Virus record (IMG/VR): IMGVR_UViG_3300005962_000003
Location: 1 to 25,098 of that record
DNA: 25,098 bases
Strand: one strand, 5' to 3'
Source: a virus
This document shows, piece after piece, positions 12,280-19,679 of the stretch. The notes below the pieces were generated by a model that ran no database searches, had not been told where the DNA came from, and saw only the letters and a list, made by a program, of their open reading frames with translations. Each line of letters opens with the position of its first letter. Positions within the stretch are counted from its first letter, which is position 1. A program made the translations under genes and the position numbers.

Positions 12280-13317
12280 TTAGGTTATCTTTTTAAACAC
12301 AAAAACGGGTTCGGTTTTATACCTTCTACCAGTCCCCGGGGCAGAAGACATCATCATTTCTTTTCTTTGTAAGTATTCAAATCCAGCGTCTAAAGCACAC
12401 TGCACCGTCGCATTCTCCAAATCATATTCTTTCCCGCCAATTTTCACATTTGCGATGTTAATAATCATATATGAGTTTCTTTTTAGCTTTTTGTAAACTA
12501 TTTTAAAACTTCTTTTTAGGAAGCCGTCTACCCAGTCATTAAAGGTTGGATATCTCTTCCAGCTCTGCGTATCCTCATCACTATATTTTTCCTTAGCAAA
12601 GTAAGGGGGTGATGTGAACATAATATCAAAGCTTTCGTCCTCCAAGTCATTGTCACAGTCTTCAAACGGTTTATTAATTAATCTAACACGATTTTCCACA
12701 TTTAAAAACTTCGCTAACTTGCGTAAATTCATAAAAGTCTCGGTTGCAGGGTCAACCCCCGTGTAAGAATAATTATGTTTACTACTAATAGCACCAACTA
12801 AACGGCCACCGAAGCCAGCACTCATATCCAGAACACGCGCATTATCAACACCGCAATAGAAATCATAAATACCCTTAGCAACAGATGGTAAAAAATTCTT
12901 AAGTGATTGTTTAAAGCCTACAATTTCGGCGATATGAATAAGAGTATTGAATGTTATATTATGCTCATCCCCAAGAAGCCGCACACACTTATGAACTACC
13001 CTCGCAAACCATTTTTTATCTCTTAATTTTTGAATTGGTGATTTTCCATTCTCCACTCGCCGCAAAAGCCTAAACTTCATAAACAAGTCTGCCGTTGCTA
13101 ACCCTATAGTATCCCGAAAAATGAAGTTATTTGAAACTAATTCTTTAGAGTTTCTTAACAATAACGCTTTAAAATCTCGCACAGCATCGTCATAGTTTCC
13201 CAATAGTTTTATAACTTCGTAATCACTTAAGGTTTGAAATACTTCATATCCCCAGTCGGCTAAATAATCAAGGTCGTTGGAATAATTAACAAATCCAGCA
13301 ATTTGTAGGCTATACAT
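12280..13317 (-). CDS. DNA amino-methyltransferase (N6-adenine or N4-cytosine)
   Basis: A 345-residue protein. The SAM-binding motif I is VLDMSAGFGGRLVGA (162-176), followed by YTGVDPA, and the catalytic motif IV is TSPPYF (235-240). The order motif I then motif IV and the S-P-P-Y form indicate methylation of an exocyclic amino group; base choice cannot be told. Residues 1-150 are an extra N-terminal domain with no motif I recognise, possibly the target-recognition part. It overlaps the ParB-like gene by 8 bases, so the two are translated together. Such phage enzymes usually protect virus DNA from host restriction or mark DNA. No cognate restriction enzyme is seen. Confidence 0.88.
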   Translation of the reverse strand: MYSLQIAGFVNYSNDLDYLADWGYEVFQTLSDYEVIKLLGNYDDAVRDFKALLLRNSKELVSNNFIFRDTIGLATADLFMKFRLLRRVENGKSPIQKLRDKKWFARVVHKCVRLLGDEHNITFNTLIHIAEIVGFKQSLKNFLPSVAKGIYDFYCGVDNARVLDMSAGFGGRLVGAISSKHNYSYTGVDPATETFMNLRKLAKFLNVENRVRLINKPFEDCDNDLEDESFDIMFTSPPYFAKEKYSDEDTQSWKRYPTFNDWVDGFLKRSFKIVYKKLKRNSYMIINIANVKIGGKEYDLENATVQCALDAGFEYLQRKEMMMSSAPGTGRRYKTEPVFVFKKIT

Positions 13318-13870
13318 TCTTTACCACCTCACGCAAAAAATCAGCAACACTTCTACTTCCGAGAAACTTTTTGAATTGCTCGTATAACTCTAGGGGTATT
13401 TCTTCCTTGATGTTACCAAACACGAAAAAAGCAAATAAACCTTCTTTGTTAAAAATATAATCTTCAATACTTCGCTCCTCTTTTTCTAAGTTGATTGTCA
13501 ACTTTCGTAGTTCCCCTAAATCAAGCCCCGTTAAATCTAGGTCGGGGGGTTCCATGTCTTTGATAAATGATTTTAATAGTTCTTCATTAAACTCGCCTTG
13601 AATTTTATTAAGTGCAATATTAAGTGCCTTTTCCCTTGATTTTGGTAAATCCACAACGACACAATCTACTTCCTCAACCCCCAGTTCCTGTAACGCCTTT
13701 AGTCTTTGGTTCCCACCTATCACTTCGTTTTTAGTGTTTATAACAAGCGGTTCCACAACACCGAATTCTCGCAAACTGTTTTTTAATTTTTCCAACATCT
13801 CTAAAGAAATTTTTCTTGGGTTATTATGGTAAAACTTAAGTTCCTTTACTTTTCTCTTTTCTGTTTTCAT
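13310..13870 (-). CDS. ParB/Srx-like domain protein
   Basis: I use the ATG at 13870 (MKTEKRKVKELKFYHNNPRK, 186 residues); a TTG 39 bases upstream is in frame, and neither has a clear ribosome binding site. Residues 1-80 match the ParB N-terminal fold: LKFYHNNPRKIS, a helix with LREFGVVEPLVI, and the signature EVIGGNQRLKAL (49-60). In phages this domain is often fused or adjacent to a methyltransferase, as here, and is thought to bind a nucleotide and sometimes to act as a nuclease. The C-terminal half is helical with an ending like FLREVVKNV. A chromosome-partition role is unlikely without a ParA. Confidence 0.82.
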   Translation of the reverse strand: MKTEKRKVKELKFYHNNPRKISLEMLEKLKNSLREFGVVEPLVINTKNEVIGGNQRLKALQELGVEEVDCVVVDLPKSREKALNIALNKIQGEFNEELLKSFIKDMEPPDLDLTGLDLGELRKLTINLEKEERSIEDYIFNKEGLFAFFVFGNIKEEIPLELYEQFKKFLGSRSVADFLREVVKNV

Positions 13871-13937
13871 ACCAAAAAAATGATAAGTAATTACAGAGAT
13901 TAGATGCAAGAGAAAATGTGTAATGTGACAGGAACGG

Positions 13938-15467: not shown

Positions 15468-15500
15468 AAAAAAATACAAGGGGGATATTAAGCCCCCCTT
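15468..15500 (-). terminator. Terminator overlapping the end of the upstream gene
   Basis: On the minus strand AAGGGGG pairs with CCCCCTT, followed by GTATTTTTTT. The stop codon of the gene ending at 15488 lies inside the loop, so translating ribosomes could affect its folding. The next ribosome binding site begins right after the T run. Confidence 0.8.
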
Positions 15501-16294
15501 ATGATATCTTGTATTTTTCTTTTAACGGCCATTAGTCTTCTAACTTTCTCCTCATCGCCGCCCGCTTCGGCAATGAGTTTGTTAAGTTTTGAATGAATTA
15601 ACCTCGCTTTTTCGCTAATATCATTCTTCTGTGACACAAATTTAATAAACTTCTCTTCAAACACACCCGTCACTATATCCTCAAGTGAGTTAGTATTTTG
15701 GTGTTGATGGTTTTGAGGTTGATGGTTTTGTGTTTGTTGGTTTATTTTTGTTGTTGTTTCTTTAGCGGTTTCGGTGTCTACGGCATCCTCATCTTGCGTA
15801 AAAATGTTTGAGAGTCCCAAAATATGTAAAACTGCATCTACAATAGCCCTTTTCTCCGCCATCTTCAGTAGTGTGTTAGCAAGTGACTTGACAGCAATCG
15901 CTTGCGGAATATTCTTATTAATAAGCCTTTGGATTTGTAAATAATACTTAACCTCGTTACTACTAGCAACCCCGAAACCCTCCGACACTATTCTGTCGTT
16001 CTTATCCAATATCCGTGATTTAATCGTATAAGAAATTTCTGTGTCGTTTTCGTTTCTGTCCAAAACGGAAACTGATATTCTTAAGCCGAGTGCATAGGCA
16101 ATTTTTTCTGCACCCGCTTTGAAGAGGAAAGGTTTTGAAACTCCCTCCACAGTTCCGTAATCCTCCCCTTCCTTGAGGAGGCTTTTTATGAAATTATGGA
16201 ACTGTTTAACCTCCTCCAGGCGTTCTTTGAAATTTTGGAGTTGAGATTGCGACATCTCAACTCCACTTGAAATTGTCGTTATGTAGTTTTCCAT
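15488..16294 (-). CDS. Phage protein with KPxLxKxGAEK motif, possibly recombination-related
   Basis: A 268-residue protein. The N-terminal half has KEGEDYGTVEGVSKPFLFK then AGAEKIAYALGL (41-70), a strand-rich section (ISYTIKSRILDKN, IVSEGFGVASSNEVKY) and ANTLLKMAEKRAIVDAVL with LSNIFTQDEDA (about 138-172). This combination defines a phage and plasmid family I know only as uncharacterised, near recombination genes. The M-A-x-K-R-A-x-V-D-A segment recalls Rad52/DdrA-like annealing proteins, so single-strand annealing is a possibility, not a finding. Residues 185-200 are a Q/N/H linker with a near repeat (NHQPQNHQHQN). It has its own upstream repeat element and a terminator inside its end. Confidence 0.72.
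   Translation of the reverse strand: MENYITTISSGVEMSQSQLQNFKERLEEVKQFHNFIKSLLKEGEDYGTVEGVSKPFLFKAGAEKIAYALGLRISVSVLDRNENDTEISYTIKSRILDKNDRIVSEGFGVASSNEVKYYLQIQRLINKNIPQAIAVKSLANTLLKMAEKRAIVDAVLHILGLSNIFTQDEDAVDTETAKETTTKINQQTQNHQPQNHQHQNTNSLEDIVTGVFEEKFIKFVSQKNDISEKARLIHSKLNKLIAEAGGDEEKVRRLMAVKRKIQDIIRGA
16237..16264 (-). repeat. Perfect hairpin inside the 5' part of the gene
   Basis: GGAGTTGAGAT (16237-16247) and ATCTCAACTCC (16254-16264) are perfect 11-base arms around a 6-base loop. It lies 30-57 bases inside the coding sequence that starts at 16294. It belongs to a set of similar hairpins in neighbouring genes. Confidence 0.85.
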
Positions 16295-16316: not shown

Positions 16317-16336
16317 TTCCCATATTGTTCAGATAA
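16317..16336 (-). promoter_or_regulatory. Repeated leader element, copy 1
   Basis: Reads TTATCTGAACAATATGGGA on the minus strand, between a terminator T run and the ribosome binding site of the gene at 16294. Unlike the other three copies it is followed by AATA rather than TAAA, so the flanking TTTATC/GATAAA dyad is broken here. Confidence 0.7.
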
Positions 16337-16360
16337 AAAAAAGGGGGCACGAAGCCCCCT
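16334..16360 (-). terminator. Strong rho-independent terminator
   Basis: AGGGGGC pairs with GCCCCCT around a 5-base loop (TTCGT on the minus strand), followed by eight T residues that run directly into the repeated leader element of the next gene. Confidence 0.92.
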
Positions 16361-16366
16361 AAAAAG

Positions 16367-16591
16367 TTAAGAATTGCTCCCATATTTCCTTAAAAGCCCT
16401 TCCAAAGCACCTATTATTTCCAGAATTTGTGATTTTGGAAATGCAGGGGCTTTCATGTAGTATTGCTCCCACAACACCCCAATTAGAGTTTTAGTTGCTT
16501 CTAAAGCTCCCTCCTCTTCAATTATGCCGTCTAAATCCCAAACGATCTCCGAAAACCCCTCTTTTAGTTCCTTTTTCAGTTCCTCTTCCAT
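16367..16591 (-). CDS. Small unknown acidic protein, 74 residues
   Basis: I place the start at the ATG at 16591 (MEEELKKELKEGFSEIVWDL), preceded by AAGGAGGTGTGT; an in-frame GTG six bases earlier lies inside that site. The protein is acidic and appears all-helical, with a conserved-looking centre (EATKTLIGVLWEQYYMKAP). It is the only gene after acrIII-1 in the same short unit, separated from it by a stem-loop and ending just before a strong terminator. Small acidic proteins next to a known anti-CRISPR are typical candidates for further anti-defence proteins, but nothing in the sequence itself shows that function. Confidence 0.7.
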   Translation of the reverse strand: MEEELKKELKEGFSEIVWDLDGIIEEEGALEATKTLIGVLWEQYYMKAPAFPKSQILEIIGALEGLLRKYGSNS

Positions 16592-16604
16592 ACACACCTC
16601 CTTA

Positions 16605-16626
16605 AAAGGAAGCTTCGGCTTCCTTT
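16605..16626 (-). other. Stem-loop between acrIII-1 and the next gene
   Basis: AAAGGAAGC and GCTTCCTTT form perfect 9-base arms around a 4-base loop. The acrIII-1 stop codon overlaps the first arm, and the ribosome binding site of the next gene follows directly. Only a short T run follows, so it may be a weak terminator or an mRNA end-stabilising or processing hairpin. Confidence 0.75.
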
Positions 16627-16948
16627 AAAAATTAACTAATAGGAATTTGAACTGTAGCTTTGACAACTCATCTTCGCTTAAAATTTTCCCCTCTTCTAAA
16701 CGGATTGATAGCTGAAAAACAATAAGAATATCACCAGGGGAGAGTTGAATTGGAATACGGTTAAAAGTGACTTGAATGTTTAGCAATTTTGTAAGCAAAT
16801 CTGCGGTTGCTTGGTGTCCAACCGCACTAACAAAGGAATTGCTTGTTAGCAATTCCTTCACTTCTTCAATCCCTACTTCCTTAATATGTAAGGAAGTAGG
16901 AAATTGTTTTAACATACTTAGGCTAAACGCATTTGACAAGTATACCAT
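16625..16948 (-). CDS. acrIII-1: Anti-CRISPR viral ring nuclease (DUF1874 / AcrIII-1 family)
   Basis: A 107-residue protein. It starts MVYLSNAFSLSML, the hallmark opening of DUF1874 (STIV B116, SIRV1 gp29), followed by EVGIEEVKELL, then FVSAVGHQATADLLTKLL, then NRIPIQLSPGDILIVFQL and RLEEGKILSEDEL. These match the family block by block and the length is normal. Characterised members are dimers that bind and cut cyclic tetra-adenylate (cA4), switching off type III CRISPR-Cas defence. His45 in GHQATA corresponds to the catalytic histidine, and Arg83 and Glu86 fall where further active-site residues are known, so the enzyme looks intact. A full binding site (AAAGGAGGTG) and a repeated leader element precede it. 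Confidence 0.93.
   Translation of the reverse strand: MVYLSNAFSLSMLKQFPTSLHIKEVGIEEVKELLTSNSFVSAVGHQATADLLTKLLNIQVTFNRIPIQLSPGDILIVFQLSIRLEEGKILSEDELSKLQFKFLLVNF
16802..16900 (-). repeat. Three consecutive perfect hairpins inside acrIII-1
   Basis: Three inverted repeats lie one after another. TGCGGTTG/CAACCGCA is at 16802-16826 (8-base arms, 9-base loop). AAGGAATTGC/GCAATTCCTT is at 16833-16858 (10-base arms, 6-base loop). CCTACTTCCTTA/TAAGGAAGTAGG is at 16872-16900 (12-base arms, 5-base loop). They cover roughly codons 17-49, including the codon of the catalytic histidine. Confidence 0.9.
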
Positions 16949-16959
16949 AACCCACCTCC

Positions 16960-16983
16960 TTTATCCCATATTGTTCAGATAAA
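16960..16983 (-). promoter_or_regulatory. Repeated leader element, copy 2 (acrIII-1 leader)
   Basis: On the minus strand TTTATC and GATAAA flank TGAACAATATGG. The right arm touches the GGAGG of the acrIII-1 ribosome binding site, leaving no room for a promoter start after it. The left side merges with the T run of the upstream terminator. A leader hairpin or an operator fits better than a -10 box. Confidence 0.72.
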
Positions 16984-17008
16984 AAAAATAGGGGGCAAAG
17001 CCCCCCCC
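16981..17008 (-). terminator. Strong rho-independent terminator upstream of acrIII-1
   Basis: On the minus strand GGGGGC pairs with GCCCCC around the 3-base loop TTT, followed by TATTTTTTTT. It follows the gene ending at 17017. Confidence 0.92.
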
Positions 17009-17016
17009 TTTTTTTC

Positions 17017-17364
17017 TTACCTTTTCCATCTTCTTAACTTAAACTCTTCCTTTCTAGAATATCTTGAAAGGTCAAACTCTAGGGGGGCGTAAAAGTCTCC
17101 CCACCCTTTATCAATATATACGAATTTTCCGCTTAGGCCTATCTTCTCTGCAAAATTCTTTTCAACAACAATATAAGAGGGTAGATCAATCGTCCCTCTG
17201 TATTTGGAATAAGTCATATTCTCATCAATTAGTTTTACATATTTTAGCGCGCTCGGGGCATACAATTTTAGCGTTTTTAGAAACCTTCTTACCCCGGCGG
17301 GACAAGTTGTAACAGTAATAGTTTCCCATTTTTTGGGAAACTTTTCATTTTCGTAAATTAACAT
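17017..17364 (-). CDS. Unknown basic protein, 115 residues
   Basis: A protein starting MLIYENEKFPKKWETITVTT after GGAGGGAGGTG. Strand-rich in the middle (GTIDLPSYIVVEKNFAEKI, GKFVYIDKGWGDFYAPLEF), with a strongly basic ending (SRKEEFKLRRWKR). No known motif. It overlaps the preceding gene by 7 bases, so the two are co-translated and may work together. Several inverted repeats lie in its coding sequence, the best being AGTTTCCCA/TGGGAAACT at 17320-17342 and CCTTTC-AGA/TCT-GAAAGG at 17049-17071. Position beside acrIII-1 makes it an anti-defence candidate only by association. Confidence 0.7.
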   Translation of the reverse strand: MLIYENEKFPKKWETITVTTCPAGVRRFLKTLKLYAPSALKYVKLIDENMTYSKYRGTIDLPSYIVVEKNFAEKIGLSGKFVYIDKGWGDFYAPLEFDLSRYSRKEEFKLRRWKR

Positions 17365-17717
17365 ACACCTCCCTCCTTTTCTATGAAGTAATTGAGGATC
17401 TTCTCAATTACTTCTTTAGTAGATTTTATTTCCAGTGACAGCCTACCCCTTTTAACTCCAACAATCTGATTACCCAGTTTGTAGTAATAAAATGATTTAG
17501 GGGAGAAATTTCTAAACTCCTCCACATCTCCAAACAAACTGTTTAGGATACTCTTGAATGTTTTACCAACCTTCTTGCGATCCAGTCCAAGCTGCTTAAA
17601 GTTCAACCATTTTTTCCTATCGGAAAAAATGGTCAATAGACAAATCTCCCCTCTCATAGAAACATAATAAGTTTCCATTACAAATATGTAATGTTTTGTG
17701 TAGAACTTCTTTACCAT
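17358..17717 (-). CDS. Unknown basic protein, 119 residues
   Basis: A protein starting MVKKFYTKHYIFVMETYYVS after AAGGAGGTG and a repeated leader element. It is basic and of mixed alpha/beta character, with GLDRKKVGKTFKSILNSLFG and KSFYYYKLGNQIVGVKRGRL in the middle and a helical end (EVIEKILNYFIEKEGG). Not recognised. Its coding sequence contains two perfect 12-base inverted repeats (17385-17414 and 17606-17633) and one 7-base one (17676-17693). It is the first gene of a two-gene unit. Confidence 0.7.
   Translation of the reverse strand: MVKKFYTKHYIFVMETYYVSMRGEICLLTIFSDRKKWLNFKQLGLDRKKVGKTFKSILNSLFGDVEEFRNFSPKSFYYYKLGNQIVGVKRGRLSLEIKSTKEVIEKILNYFIEKEGGVC
17385..17414 (-). repeat. Perfect 12-base hairpin near the gene's 3' end
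   Basis: GAAGTAATTGAG (17385-17396) and CTCAATTACTTC (17403-17414) flank a 6-base loop. The hairpin lies entirely within codons near the end of the gene that stops at 17358 and just before the start of the next gene at 17364. Confidence 0.9.
17606..17633 (-). repeat. Perfect 12-base hairpin inside the gene
   Basis: ACCATTTTTTCC (17606-17617) and GGAAAAAATGGT (17622-17633) flank the 4-base loop TATC. It encodes part of an ordinary-looking stretch (FSDRKKWLNF), so the palindrome sits on top of coding sequence. Confidence 0.9.
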
Positions 17718-17735
17718 AACACACCTCCTTTTATA

Positions 17736-17761
17736 TTTTATCCCATATGGTTCAGATAAAA
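17736..17761 (-). promoter_or_regulatory. Repeated leader element, copy 3
   Basis: On the minus strand TTTTATC and GATAAAA flank TGAACCATATGG, which itself holds the 8-base palindrome CCATATGG. It is followed by TATAAAAGGAGGTG and the gene at 17717. It is identical over its 26 bases to copy 4. Confidence 0.75.
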
Positions 17762-17808: not shown

Positions 17809-18135
17809 TTAACGAGTATCTATGCTTACTATGTATTTTCTGTTTCCTAGCCTTTTTCTTATTTTCTCTACAAACTTTTGCCTTCTGTCGTCTCCATGAA
17901 GCAACCACAACTCCAACTCAAGCCTATCTATAAAGGGGTCCCACATGGTTAATATCGCATTGTCATACCAGTCATCTTTTTCGGTGCGAACATCCCACCT
18001 CAGTGAGGCTCCGTATATATAGGAGTCACTTACTTCTACCCTTTTGTAATATTTTCTGAGCTCTTGGGCGTAGAGCTCCAAAATTTTTTTCTCAACATCA
18101 TGCCCCTCGTAAAACTTCATGACTAGCCATCTCAT
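17809..18135 (-). CDS. Unknown protein, 108 residues
   Basis: I use the ATG at 18135 (MRWLVMKFYEGHDVEKKILE), preceded by AAGGAGGTGTGT. The protein has an N-terminal helix (HDVEKKILELYAQELRKYY), then strands (KRVEVSDSYIYGASLRWDV) and a tryptophan-rich acidic centre (DDWYDNAILTMWDPFIDRLE), ending in a basic helix. Aromatic and charged content is high for a phage accessory protein. No family recognised. It is a single-gene unit with a leader element before it and a hairpin after it. Confidence 0.7.
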   Translation of the reverse strand: MRWLVMKFYEGHDVEKKILELYAQELRKYYKRVEVSDSYIYGASLRWDVRTEKDDWYDNAILTMWDPFIDRLELELWLLHGDDRRQKFVEKIRKRLGNRKYIVSIDTR

Positions 18136-18152
18136 ACACACCTCCTTTTATA

Positions 18153-18178
18153 TTTTATCCCATATGGTTCAGATAAAA
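18153..18178 (-). promoter_or_regulatory. Repeated leader element, copy 4
   Basis: Identical to copy 3 over 26 bases, with the same TATAAAAGGAGGTG following. It begins at the T run of the hairpin at 18177-18198, so terminator and leader overlap as in copies 1 and 2. Confidence 0.75.
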
Positions 18179-18221
18179 GGGGAGGGTATCCTCCCCTTAT
18201 AAGAGGGGGTGCTAAGCCCCC
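18177..18221 (-). terminator. Two tandem terminator-like hairpins
   Basis: The first in transcription order (18205-18221) pairs GGGG and GC with GC and CCCC around TTA; it overlaps the last codons of the gene ending at 18212. The second (18177-18198) pairs AAGGGGAGG with CCTCCCCTT and is followed by TTATC. Two in a row suggest that reading through is strongly limited. Confidence 0.8.
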
Positions 18222-18514
18222 ATAAAAACTTTTACATCACTGTTCAACCTTTCAAGTATTAATAATGATGATTTTGTGCTTGGGGTAATAAGAATATAAT
18301 CGTCAAATTCTTCAATAGTTAGTAAAGTTTTCTTCAGCGCCTTGAGACAATGAGTATCACACTGAAAATCATCTAGCGTAAAATTACTCAAATCTATTGT
18401 ACTGATACAATCGCTAAATTCTACTTCTCTGTAATAATTAGAGAAGTAGTTTTTAAGAGTTCTGTAGAACTCTTCTCTCTTCTCTCTTTCAACATAAAAT
18501 TTGAATCTTTCCAT
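18212..18514 (-). CDS. Unknown protein, 100 residues, first gene of the early-type cluster
   Basis: I use the ATG at 18514 (MERFKFYVEREKREEFYRTL) after AAGGAGGG. It sits directly downstream of a consensus promoter (18541-18570), making it the first gene of the transcript. The protein has an N-terminal basic helical segment, then EVEFSDCISTIDLSNFTLDD, two further cysteines/histidines (CDTHC), and a strand pair (DDYILITPSTKSSLLI). C-D-T-H-C could bind metal, but one cluster alone is not a known motif. Not recognised. Three consecutive inverted repeats lie inside it (18396-18474). Confidence 0.72.
   Translation of the reverse strand: MERFKFYVEREKREEFYRTLKNYFSNYYREVEFSDCISTIDLSNFTLDDFQCDTHCLKALKKTLLTIEEFDDYILITPSTKSSLLILERLNSDVKVFMGA
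18396..18474 (-). repeat. Three consecutive hairpins inside the first cluster gene
   Basis: ATTGTA/TACAAT (18396-18411, 4-base loop), CTACTTCTCT/AGAGAAGTAG (18421-18449, 9-base loop) and AAGAGTTC/GAACTCTT (18455-18474, 4-base loop) follow one another. The arrangement resembles the triple hairpin in acrIII-1, though the sequences differ. Confidence 0.88.
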
Positions 18515-18540
18515 ATAACCCTCCTTTTTCTTACACATAC

Positions 18541-18570
18541 ATTATAAACTATTGCACCCCTGTTTGTCAA
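18541..18570 (-). promoter_or_regulatory. Consensus sigma-70 promoter
   Basis: On the minus strand TTGACA (18565-18570) and TATAAT (18541-18546) are perfect consensus boxes 18 bases apart, and the ribosome binding site of the gene at 18514 follows about 20 bases downstream. This is the best promoter in the window and suggests that the host's housekeeping RNA polymerase transcribes the 18.5-15 kb cluster early in infection. Confidence 0.9.
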
Positions 18571-18599: not shown

Positions 18600-18818
18600 C
18601 TATTTTTCTTCCTTTGGCTCAAAGTGGATGCAACCGAACTTCTCACCAGTAACAGCAACAAAGAAGAAATCGGAGTTTGCTACGACAACATCAGGTTTGT
18701 CATTGCTAGGATACATTTCAAACAATTTGCAATCACCAAACTCTAAATAAACTTTCATATGGTCGAAAAACTGTCCCAGGTTTCTCCAGTGTTTGCAATT
18801 CTTGCAAATTTTTTCCAT
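18600..18818 (-). CDS. Small four-cysteine zinc-ribbon-like protein
   Basis: A 72-residue protein with CKNCKHW at the start (Cys5, Cys8), GDCK (Cys30) and FGCIHFEP at the end (Cys63). This CxxC...C...FGCxxFE pattern is common in small phage proteins of unknown role, presumably binding zinc. The ribosome binding site is AAAGGAGGT. It is transcribed from its own probable promoter (18841-18870), upstream of the consensus promoter. A small hairpin (TTTGCAA/TTGCAAA, 18792-18808) overlaps the first codons, including the first cysteines. Confidence 0.8.
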   Translation of the reverse strand: MEKICKNCKHWRNLGQFFDHMKVYLEFGDCKLFEMYPSNDKPDVVVANSDFFFVAVTGEKFGCIHFEPKEEK

Positions 18819-18870: not shown

Positions 18871-18882
18871 GGGTTTTGAAGT

Positions 18883-19322
18883 AAAAAAATGCTTAAAAAT
18901 CGTTACAAAACCACGCGATTTTTGATAAAAAACACCCCATTTTTTACGCAAAAACACACATTTTTGAACAGATTTTCGTATTATATAATACTATATATAG
19001 TATTATATAATATTATTATATACCGAAAATCTCACCAAAACTACGCGATTTTTGATAAAAACCCCCTAAAAAATGCCAAAAATCGCTATGTTTTGAATAG
19101 ATTTTTGACACTTTTTAGATGGAAAAAATGATTAAAAAATGCTTAAAAATCACCTCATTTTTGATAGAAAAACCCCCCATTTTTGATAGAAAAAATGCTA
19201 TTTTTTTTGATAAAAAACGCTACATTTTTGACACTTTTTGATGCTAAAAATGATTAAAAAAACCGCCATTTTTTTGATGGAAAAACGCACATTTTTTAAC
19301 GATTTTTGATAGAAAAAATTGC
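18883..19322. repeat. AT-rich noncoding region with iteron-like repeats (origin candidate)
   Basis: The gap from 18819 to 19352 has no credible gene. At least seven copies of a TTTTTGATA(A/G)AAAA-type motif occur (near 18919, 19049, 19157, 19180, 19203, 19269 and 19302). Longer direct repeats also occur: 18906-18931 with 19036-19061 (one mismatch, exactly 130 bases apart), 18884-18901 with 19134-19151, and 19101-19138 with 19224-19261. All repeats have the same orientation. Iteron-like direct repeats in very AT-rich DNA with a large palindrome are typical of replication origins. The origin role is inferred; a regulatory or noncoding RNA locus is the alternative. Confidence 0.75.
18970..19032. 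repeat. 34-bp perfect palindrome within larger inverted repeat
   Basis: Bases 18979-19012 are a perfect 34-base palindrome of A/T with a single C and G near its centre. It is enclosed by AGATTTTCG (18970-18978) and CGAAAATCT (19024-19032), separated from it on one side by about 11 extra bases. It could form a cruciform or a long RNA hairpin. It lies between two copies of the 26-base direct repeat. Confidence 0.92.
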
Positions 19323-19352
19323 TTATTTTTAGCACGAAAACATGTCATTTTT

Positions 19353-19679
19353 TTAATTTATATCCATATCCATACCTACTATTACTTTTACGGGTTTATG
19401 CAATCTCTTTGCAAGTCGTAGTTCTCTCTTAAGTCCATTACTTGTGAAAAAGTCGGTTTTGTCAAACACATAAACCCATACCTCATCGCATAAACTTAAC
19501 AATTTTAGGCTCTTTTTTATTGCTTCTCTTTCGTTTATTCCTGTCCATCCAAATAGAATTGGTGTGTTGATTATTACGATGTCTTTTCTTTCCTTGTATA
19601 TTCCCGCTATAAACTCCTTTACTTCCTTTACTCGCCATTTCTCCCTGTTGAATTTATGTGCAAGATAAATCACCAGCAT
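19353..19679 (-). CDS. DUF4406 / nucleoside deoxyribosyltransferase-like protein
   Basis: A 108-residue protein starting MLVIYLAHKFNREKWRVKEV. The order of an opening strand ending in a small residue and H/P, a helix, IVIINTPILFGW, then LLSLCDEVWVYVFD and SNGLKRELRLAKRL resembles the DUF4406 and nucleoside 2-deoxyribosyltransferase-like fold (S-x-G-x-x-x-E at the substrate site). Such phage proteins are thought to act on nucleosides or nucleotides; the substrate is unknown. The ribosome binding site is weak. It is the last gene before the AT-rich repeat region. Confidence 0.6.
   Translation of the reverse strand: MLVIYLAHKFNREKWRVKEVKEFIAGIYKERKDIVIINTPILFGWTGINEREAIKKSLKLLSLCDEVWVYVFDKTDFFTSNGLKRELRLAKRLHKPVKVIVGMDMDIN

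Follow-up and report, generated by a model that had tools for sequence, protein, structure and literature searches.

A putative AcrIII-1 family ring nuclease carried in a variable gene island of a tailed-phage genome

An intact DUF1874 gene on the minus strand

The viral record IMGVR_UViG_3300005962_000003, a contig of 25,098 bases with 36% G+C that we refer to in its entirety as the window, carries a gene of the AcrIII-1 (DUF1874) family:

16625–16948, minus strand: DUF1874 / AcrIII-1 ring nuclease gene, 107 amino acids (profile match, Protein Data Bank (PDB) sequence relatives, H45/R83/E86 and modelled fold)

The open reading frame is intact, with an ATG start, 107 codons for amino acids and a stop included within these coordinates, and the plus strand of the same interval is non-coding and full of stops. 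The initial annotation of this locus, which named no strand, had described an intact 107-residue DUF1874 protein, and both the reading frame and a profile search bear it out: against Pfam PF08960 the protein aligned end to end (residues 2–101) with an E-value of 2.6e-27 and a score of 95.4 bits, where the curated cut-off is 26 bits. It was the sole PF08960 match in the whole virus record. The protein also matched phrog_5063 (E = 3.6e-35), and its sequence relatives in the PDB included AFV3-109 (7e-19), STIV B116 (9e-18) and SIRV1 gp29 (4e-17). The PADLOC model named Csx16 also matched, at 5e-18, a weaker match than that of PF08960 in the latter's own library; PMC12409355 treats Csx16 as a ring nuclease in its own right, whose structural similarity to 2J6B is only weak.

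The motifs YLSNAFSLSML and GHQATA, quoted in the initial annotation, are found in the protein, as are the three residues it had singled out, His45, Arg83 and Glu86. All three are invariant across 15 diverged, aligned DUF1874 members from archaeal and bacterial sources, together with N6, G44, R64 and G87. H45 aligns with the SIRV1 gp29 position occupied by His in 2x4i and by Ala in 6scf, a crystal of a catalytic mutant. SIRV1 gp29 H47A is a catalytically inactive form (PMC7213978), and the equivalent H495A mutant of Csx1-Crn2 does not degrade cyclic tetra-adenylate (cA4) (PMC7293037).

An AlphaFold2 monomer model computed from an alignment of 14 members reached a predicted local distance difference test score (pLDDT) of 91 and a predicted template modelling score of 0.81, superseding a poor single-sequence model (pLDDT 46). 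Foldseek matched it to the AcrIII-1 structure 6scf (E = 2.2e-12), and Foldseek and VIA together matched it to 6scf, 2j85, 2x4i and 2j6b, giving the DUF1874 monomer fold. The comparison with SIRV1 gp29 suggested in the initial annotation returned a Z-score of 14.9, flanked by 16.3 for STIV B116 and 14.4 for the Crn2 domain of Marinitoga Csx1-Crn2, with the next unrelated fold at 2.7. The 107-residue protein is a member of the AcrIII-1/DUF1874 (PF08960) family, far beyond chance. A tree of 27 members gave no well-supported position for it; we do not claim a transfer between archaeal and bacterial viruses. An alignment of four members proved too diverged to serve in a genome scan.

A tailed-phage genome with two close relatives

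The contig is the nearly complete genome, about 25 kb long, of a tailed bacterial phage from a hot spring. It encodes a terminase large subunit, a portal fused to a head-morphogenesis domain, an HK97-type major head protein, a prohead protease and a GH108 endolysin. The initial annotation had spoken of a bacterial siphophage; the tailed-phage backbone is evident from the terminase, portal, capsid and protease genes, and the siphophage assignment is likely, given a 1,056-residue protein in the tape-measure position. The contig ends (1–159 and 24938–25096) share a 159-base overlap with 91% identity, and this segment is present only once in the close relative G001 (below). The most likely structure is therefore a circle of about 24.9 kb, with an assembly that spans two strain variants. 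The end overlap is also compatible with a permuted genome. Scans for tRNAs and Rfam families were empty.

Two close relatives are syntenic with the window, with 72–88% protein identity along the structural genes. The first, G001 (IMG/VR 3300005452_000001, 26.3 kb), looks complete because it has exact 110-base end repeats, and its metagenome belongs to the set from the undermat of Mushroom Spring in Yellowstone (PMC4911352). The second, G002, is IMG/VR 3300031812_000022 (23.5 kb).

This setting bears on whether the gene might be a cellular Crn2 ring nuclease that was acquired with a CRISPR locus and serves host regulation. The modelled fold is the same as that of the Crn2 domain of Csx1-Crn2 (Z = 14.4), but a Crn2 gene is expected within a type III CRISPR locus, and family matching recognised no integrase or cas gene among the contig proteins. 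The AcrIII-1 gene is instead encoded by a virus, outside any CRISPR locus, amid phage structural and replication genes that are syntenic with those of the two other phages. We therefore regard a cellular Crn2 origin as highly improbable.

A variable island with a common leader motif

Between a 268-residue gene (15488–16294) and a 72-residue gene (18600–18818), gene content is nearly all different among the three genomes. In the window, this island starts with a promoter and then consists of small genes in short units, each opening with the same succession of terminator, T-tract, TATCTGAACMATATGGGA, GGAGG and ATG. From its head, its features are as follows:

18541–18570, minus strand: perfect promoter of the sigma-70 type (TTGACA-18-TATAAT, 12 of 12 consensus bases) that opens the island, ahead of the 108-residue gene
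18212–18538, minus strand: 108-residue island protein, with 33% identity to one of the island proteins of G002
18158–18175, minus strand: leader motif before the 110-residue gene 17809–18141 (motif scan)
17809–18141, minus strand: 110-residue island protein, no family match and no homologue in the loci compared
17741–17758, minus strand: leader motif before the 119-residue gene 17358–17717 (motif scan)
17358–17717, minus strand: 119-residue island protein, no family match and no homologue in the loci compared
17017–17364, minus strand: 115-residue island protein, overlapping the 119-residue gene, no family match and no homologue in the loci compared
16990–17006, minus strand: intrinsic terminator of the gene upstream of AcrIII-1, directly before the leader motif (terminator scan)
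16964–16981, minus strand: leader motif TATCTGAACAATATGGGA of the AcrIII-1 gene, between the terminator T-tract and the Shine-Dalgarno sequence (motif scan; same site in relatives)
16955–16959, minus strand: Shine-Dalgarno sequence GGAGG of the AcrIII-1 gene (read from the sequence)
16605–16626, minus strand: short hairpin AAAGGAAGC-CGAA-GCTTCCTTT, lying between the AcrIII-1 stop and the next Shine-Dalgarno sequence (read from the sequence; unlisted by the scan)
16367–16597, minus strand: 76-residue protein encoded by the second gene of the AcrIII-1 unit, matching no Pfam or PHROG family
16342–16360, minus strand: intrinsic terminator closing the AcrIII-1 unit (terminator scan)
16318–16335, minus strand: leader motif before the 268-residue gene 15488–16294 (motif scan)

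The terminator scan found 23 terminator-like sites, compared with 6.0 expected. The AcrIII-1 gene heads a two-gene unit with the 76-residue gene, whose product has a homologue with 56% identity encoded downstream of AcrIII-1 in G002 (ratio of nonsynonymous to synonymous change (pN/pS) of 0.38); no homologue was found in G001. The initial annotation had credited the AcrIII-1 gene with its own leader and terminator and with dedicated early expression. Leader and terminator are both real, but they are not peculiar to this gene: the leader is common to four genes of the window, and the AcrIII-1 gene heads a two-gene unit. Any dedicated expression is conjectural. Early expression as such seems somewhat more probable than the contrary.

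The 18-base-pair leader motif occurs four times in the window (at most three mismatches), compared with 0.05 expected, and has two copies in G001 and three in G002, mostly before different genes, with one before the DUF1874 gene of G002. Across 2.9 million viral contigs, a single further phage, G007 (IMG/VR 3300031749_000013, 40.6 kb), has the exact motif in its terminator and Shine-Dalgarno context. Its similarity to the window is only distant or patchy, with a ParB-like protein 67% identical to that of the window, and it carries a DUF1874/AcrIII-1 gene (L075:18200–18565) around 1 kb downstream of the motif. G007 also encodes a baseplate J-like protein. The remaining viral matches, which lie inside coding sequence and lack the terminator and Shine-Dalgarno context, look like chance. 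Over ten sites, 14 of the 18 motif positions are invariant and the distance to the Shine-Dalgarno sequence ranges from 2 to 26 bases. RNA folding gave no structure common to all ten leaders, and we therefore rejected a conserved RNA hairpin; the motif could act as a promoter, as an operator or at the level of RNA.

A close precedent comes from archaeal viruses, in which anti-defence genes have been sought through their regulatory sequences, with the association of AcrIII-1 with the leader among the lowest, at 0.13 (PMC11065993). In contrast, both DUF1874 copies of the window lineage have the 18-base-pair leader directly upstream. By analogy, the leader TATCTGAAC(C/A)AT(A/G)TGGGA might be a regulatory signature that marks an anti-defence island and is common to different phages that infect a single group of thermophilic bacteria, in which case the small genes behind it would be new counter-defence genes; we put this forward tentatively, as a possibility with the odds against it.

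Several other features lie outside the island of the window. An AT-rich, non-coding stretch at 18880–19340, parts of which are kept in both relatives, contains six or more TTT(T/C)TATCAAAAA(T/A) repeats as well as a 34-base perfect palindrome (18979–19012), and is possibly a replication origin. Next to it, on the minus strand (19353–19679), is a gene for a 108-residue nucleoside 2-deoxyribosyltransferase-like protein (phrog_355, DUF7768) that is 74–75% conserved in both relatives. At 12280–13909 a ParB-like gene adjoins a DNA-methyltransferase gene; the ParB-methyltransferase of G001 and G002 occupies another place, bordering the variable island, and in G002 is a fused protein of 421 residues.

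Proposed role and known members

We propose that the gene product is an AcrIII-1 family ring nuclease, which the phage carries as swappable island cargo and which blunts type III CRISPR immunity by cleaving cA4, and we consider this reading probable. By homology, the protein would act as a dimer binding cA4, which Cas10 of type III CRISPR systems produces as an alarm molecule, and would cut it to A2>P and A2-P with His45 as general acid and Arg83 and Glu86 assisting; removal of cA4 would keep cA4-activated effectors such as Csx1/Csm6 off. As cargo of an island whose small genes have leader signals in common, the gene would be gained or lost among close relatives. Cleavage of cA4 by the window protein is very likely and its dimerisation is expected, and it is fairly likely to protect the phage from type III immunity in its natural host. 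A cA4-signalling type III system in that host is a reasonable prediction. Genome searches, which covered only some phyla, pointed to no specific host. A DUF1874 scan of genome contigs returned five genomes with a match, none clearly the host; in the phylum of Thermoanaerobacterium, no terminase match in 299 genomes exceeded 37% identity, and 398 genomes contained no copy of the leader motif.

The DUF1874 gene of G002 (G002:C1:15807–16125, minus strand) has the same island position, the same leader and the same downstream 76-residue gene as that of the window, and its product is the closest protein of all, with 67% identity over the C-terminal 77 residues. Its two halves, each compared with the window copy, gave pN/pS values of 0.33 and 0.31, compared with 0.11–0.18 for structural genes in the same comparison, values to be read with synonymous sites near saturation. 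The AcrIII-1 gene is under purifying selection, accessory yet constrained. The frame of the G002 copy is broken in a homopolymer A-run and, as both halves are under purifying selection, the break is recent or a sequencing error. This frameshift would suit a degraded or inactive family member acting only as a cA4-binding sponge, but the copy in the window has its full length, every catalytic residue and a pN/pS of about 0.3, which makes such a sponge very improbable.

Several observations weigh against an anti-CRISPR role. The gene is absent from the apparently complete genome of G001 and, with the G002 copy frameshifted, the phage lineage does not always need AcrIII-1. In an archaeal virus, natively expressed AcrIII-1 was not an anti-CRISPR, according to Martinez-Alvarez et al. 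2025 as cited in PMC12751052, and SIRV2 gp37 is likewise stated not to be an anti-CRISPR when natively expressed (PMC11065993). The native role is disputed, in a 2025 exchange cited in PMC12751052 and PMC13131331. The protein could cleave cA4 without being a natural anti-CRISPR, having a housekeeping or regulatory role or clearing the cyclic nucleotides of another defence system. This alternative draws on the archaeal viruses, in which the early anti-defence leader precedes just 0.13 of AcrIII-1 homologues (PMC11065993), whereas here the leader precedes the gene in both genomes of the lineage that carry it. A phage member, that of THSA-485A, almost completely prevents Csx1-mediated immunity in Escherichia coli (PMC7371418), and patchy presence fits an accessory counter-defence gene. 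We judge a role other than anti-CRISPR to be unlikely, although a more serious contender than a Crn2 origin or a sponge, and favour the swappable ring nuclease.

AcrIII-1 is a described anti-CRISPR family, which one survey found in 36 of 28,114 phage genomes (PMC12409355), and 62 records of the phage collection match the window protein, including Hydrogenobaculum, Thermoanaerobacterium, Fusobacterium and Microcystis phages. The surprise implied by the initial annotation was overstated, because AcrIII-1 in bacterial phages was already published and one phage member, that of THSA-485A, tested (PMC7371418). The window gene therefore adds one more member to a known family, which means little alone; its setting is more useful. 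The series of present, frameshifted and absent copies in three close phages, with a leader common to neighbouring genes, yields candidate anti-defence genes and offers a bacterial setting for the dispute on natively expressed AcrIII-1 as an anti-CRISPR.

SIRV1 gp29 resembles the window protein in its fold, the N-terminal YL(S/A)NAFS, the GH and R-L-E-E-G motifs and the catalytic His, but belongs to an archaeal rudivirus of a different virus realm and is 41% identical. The THSA-485A protein (Tsac_2833, from a Thermoanaerobacterium phage) is likewise a bacterial tailed-phage member that conserves the active site, and its effect on plasmid immunity has been assayed (PMC7371418); it differs in its 45% identity, its 41.9-kb phage, a terminase only 39% identical and the lack of any described leader island. 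Hydrogenobaculum phage 1 gp18 also comes from a hot-spring bacterial phage and conserves the H/R/E residues, whereas its identity is 38–42%, its N-terminal half is different and its phage is 19 kb. The closest intact protein found, at about 50% identity, is the DUF1874 protein of IMG/VR 3300033431_000002 from the Yellowstone GGS063 spring, but that phage has a backbone unrelated to the window and no other protein in common with it.
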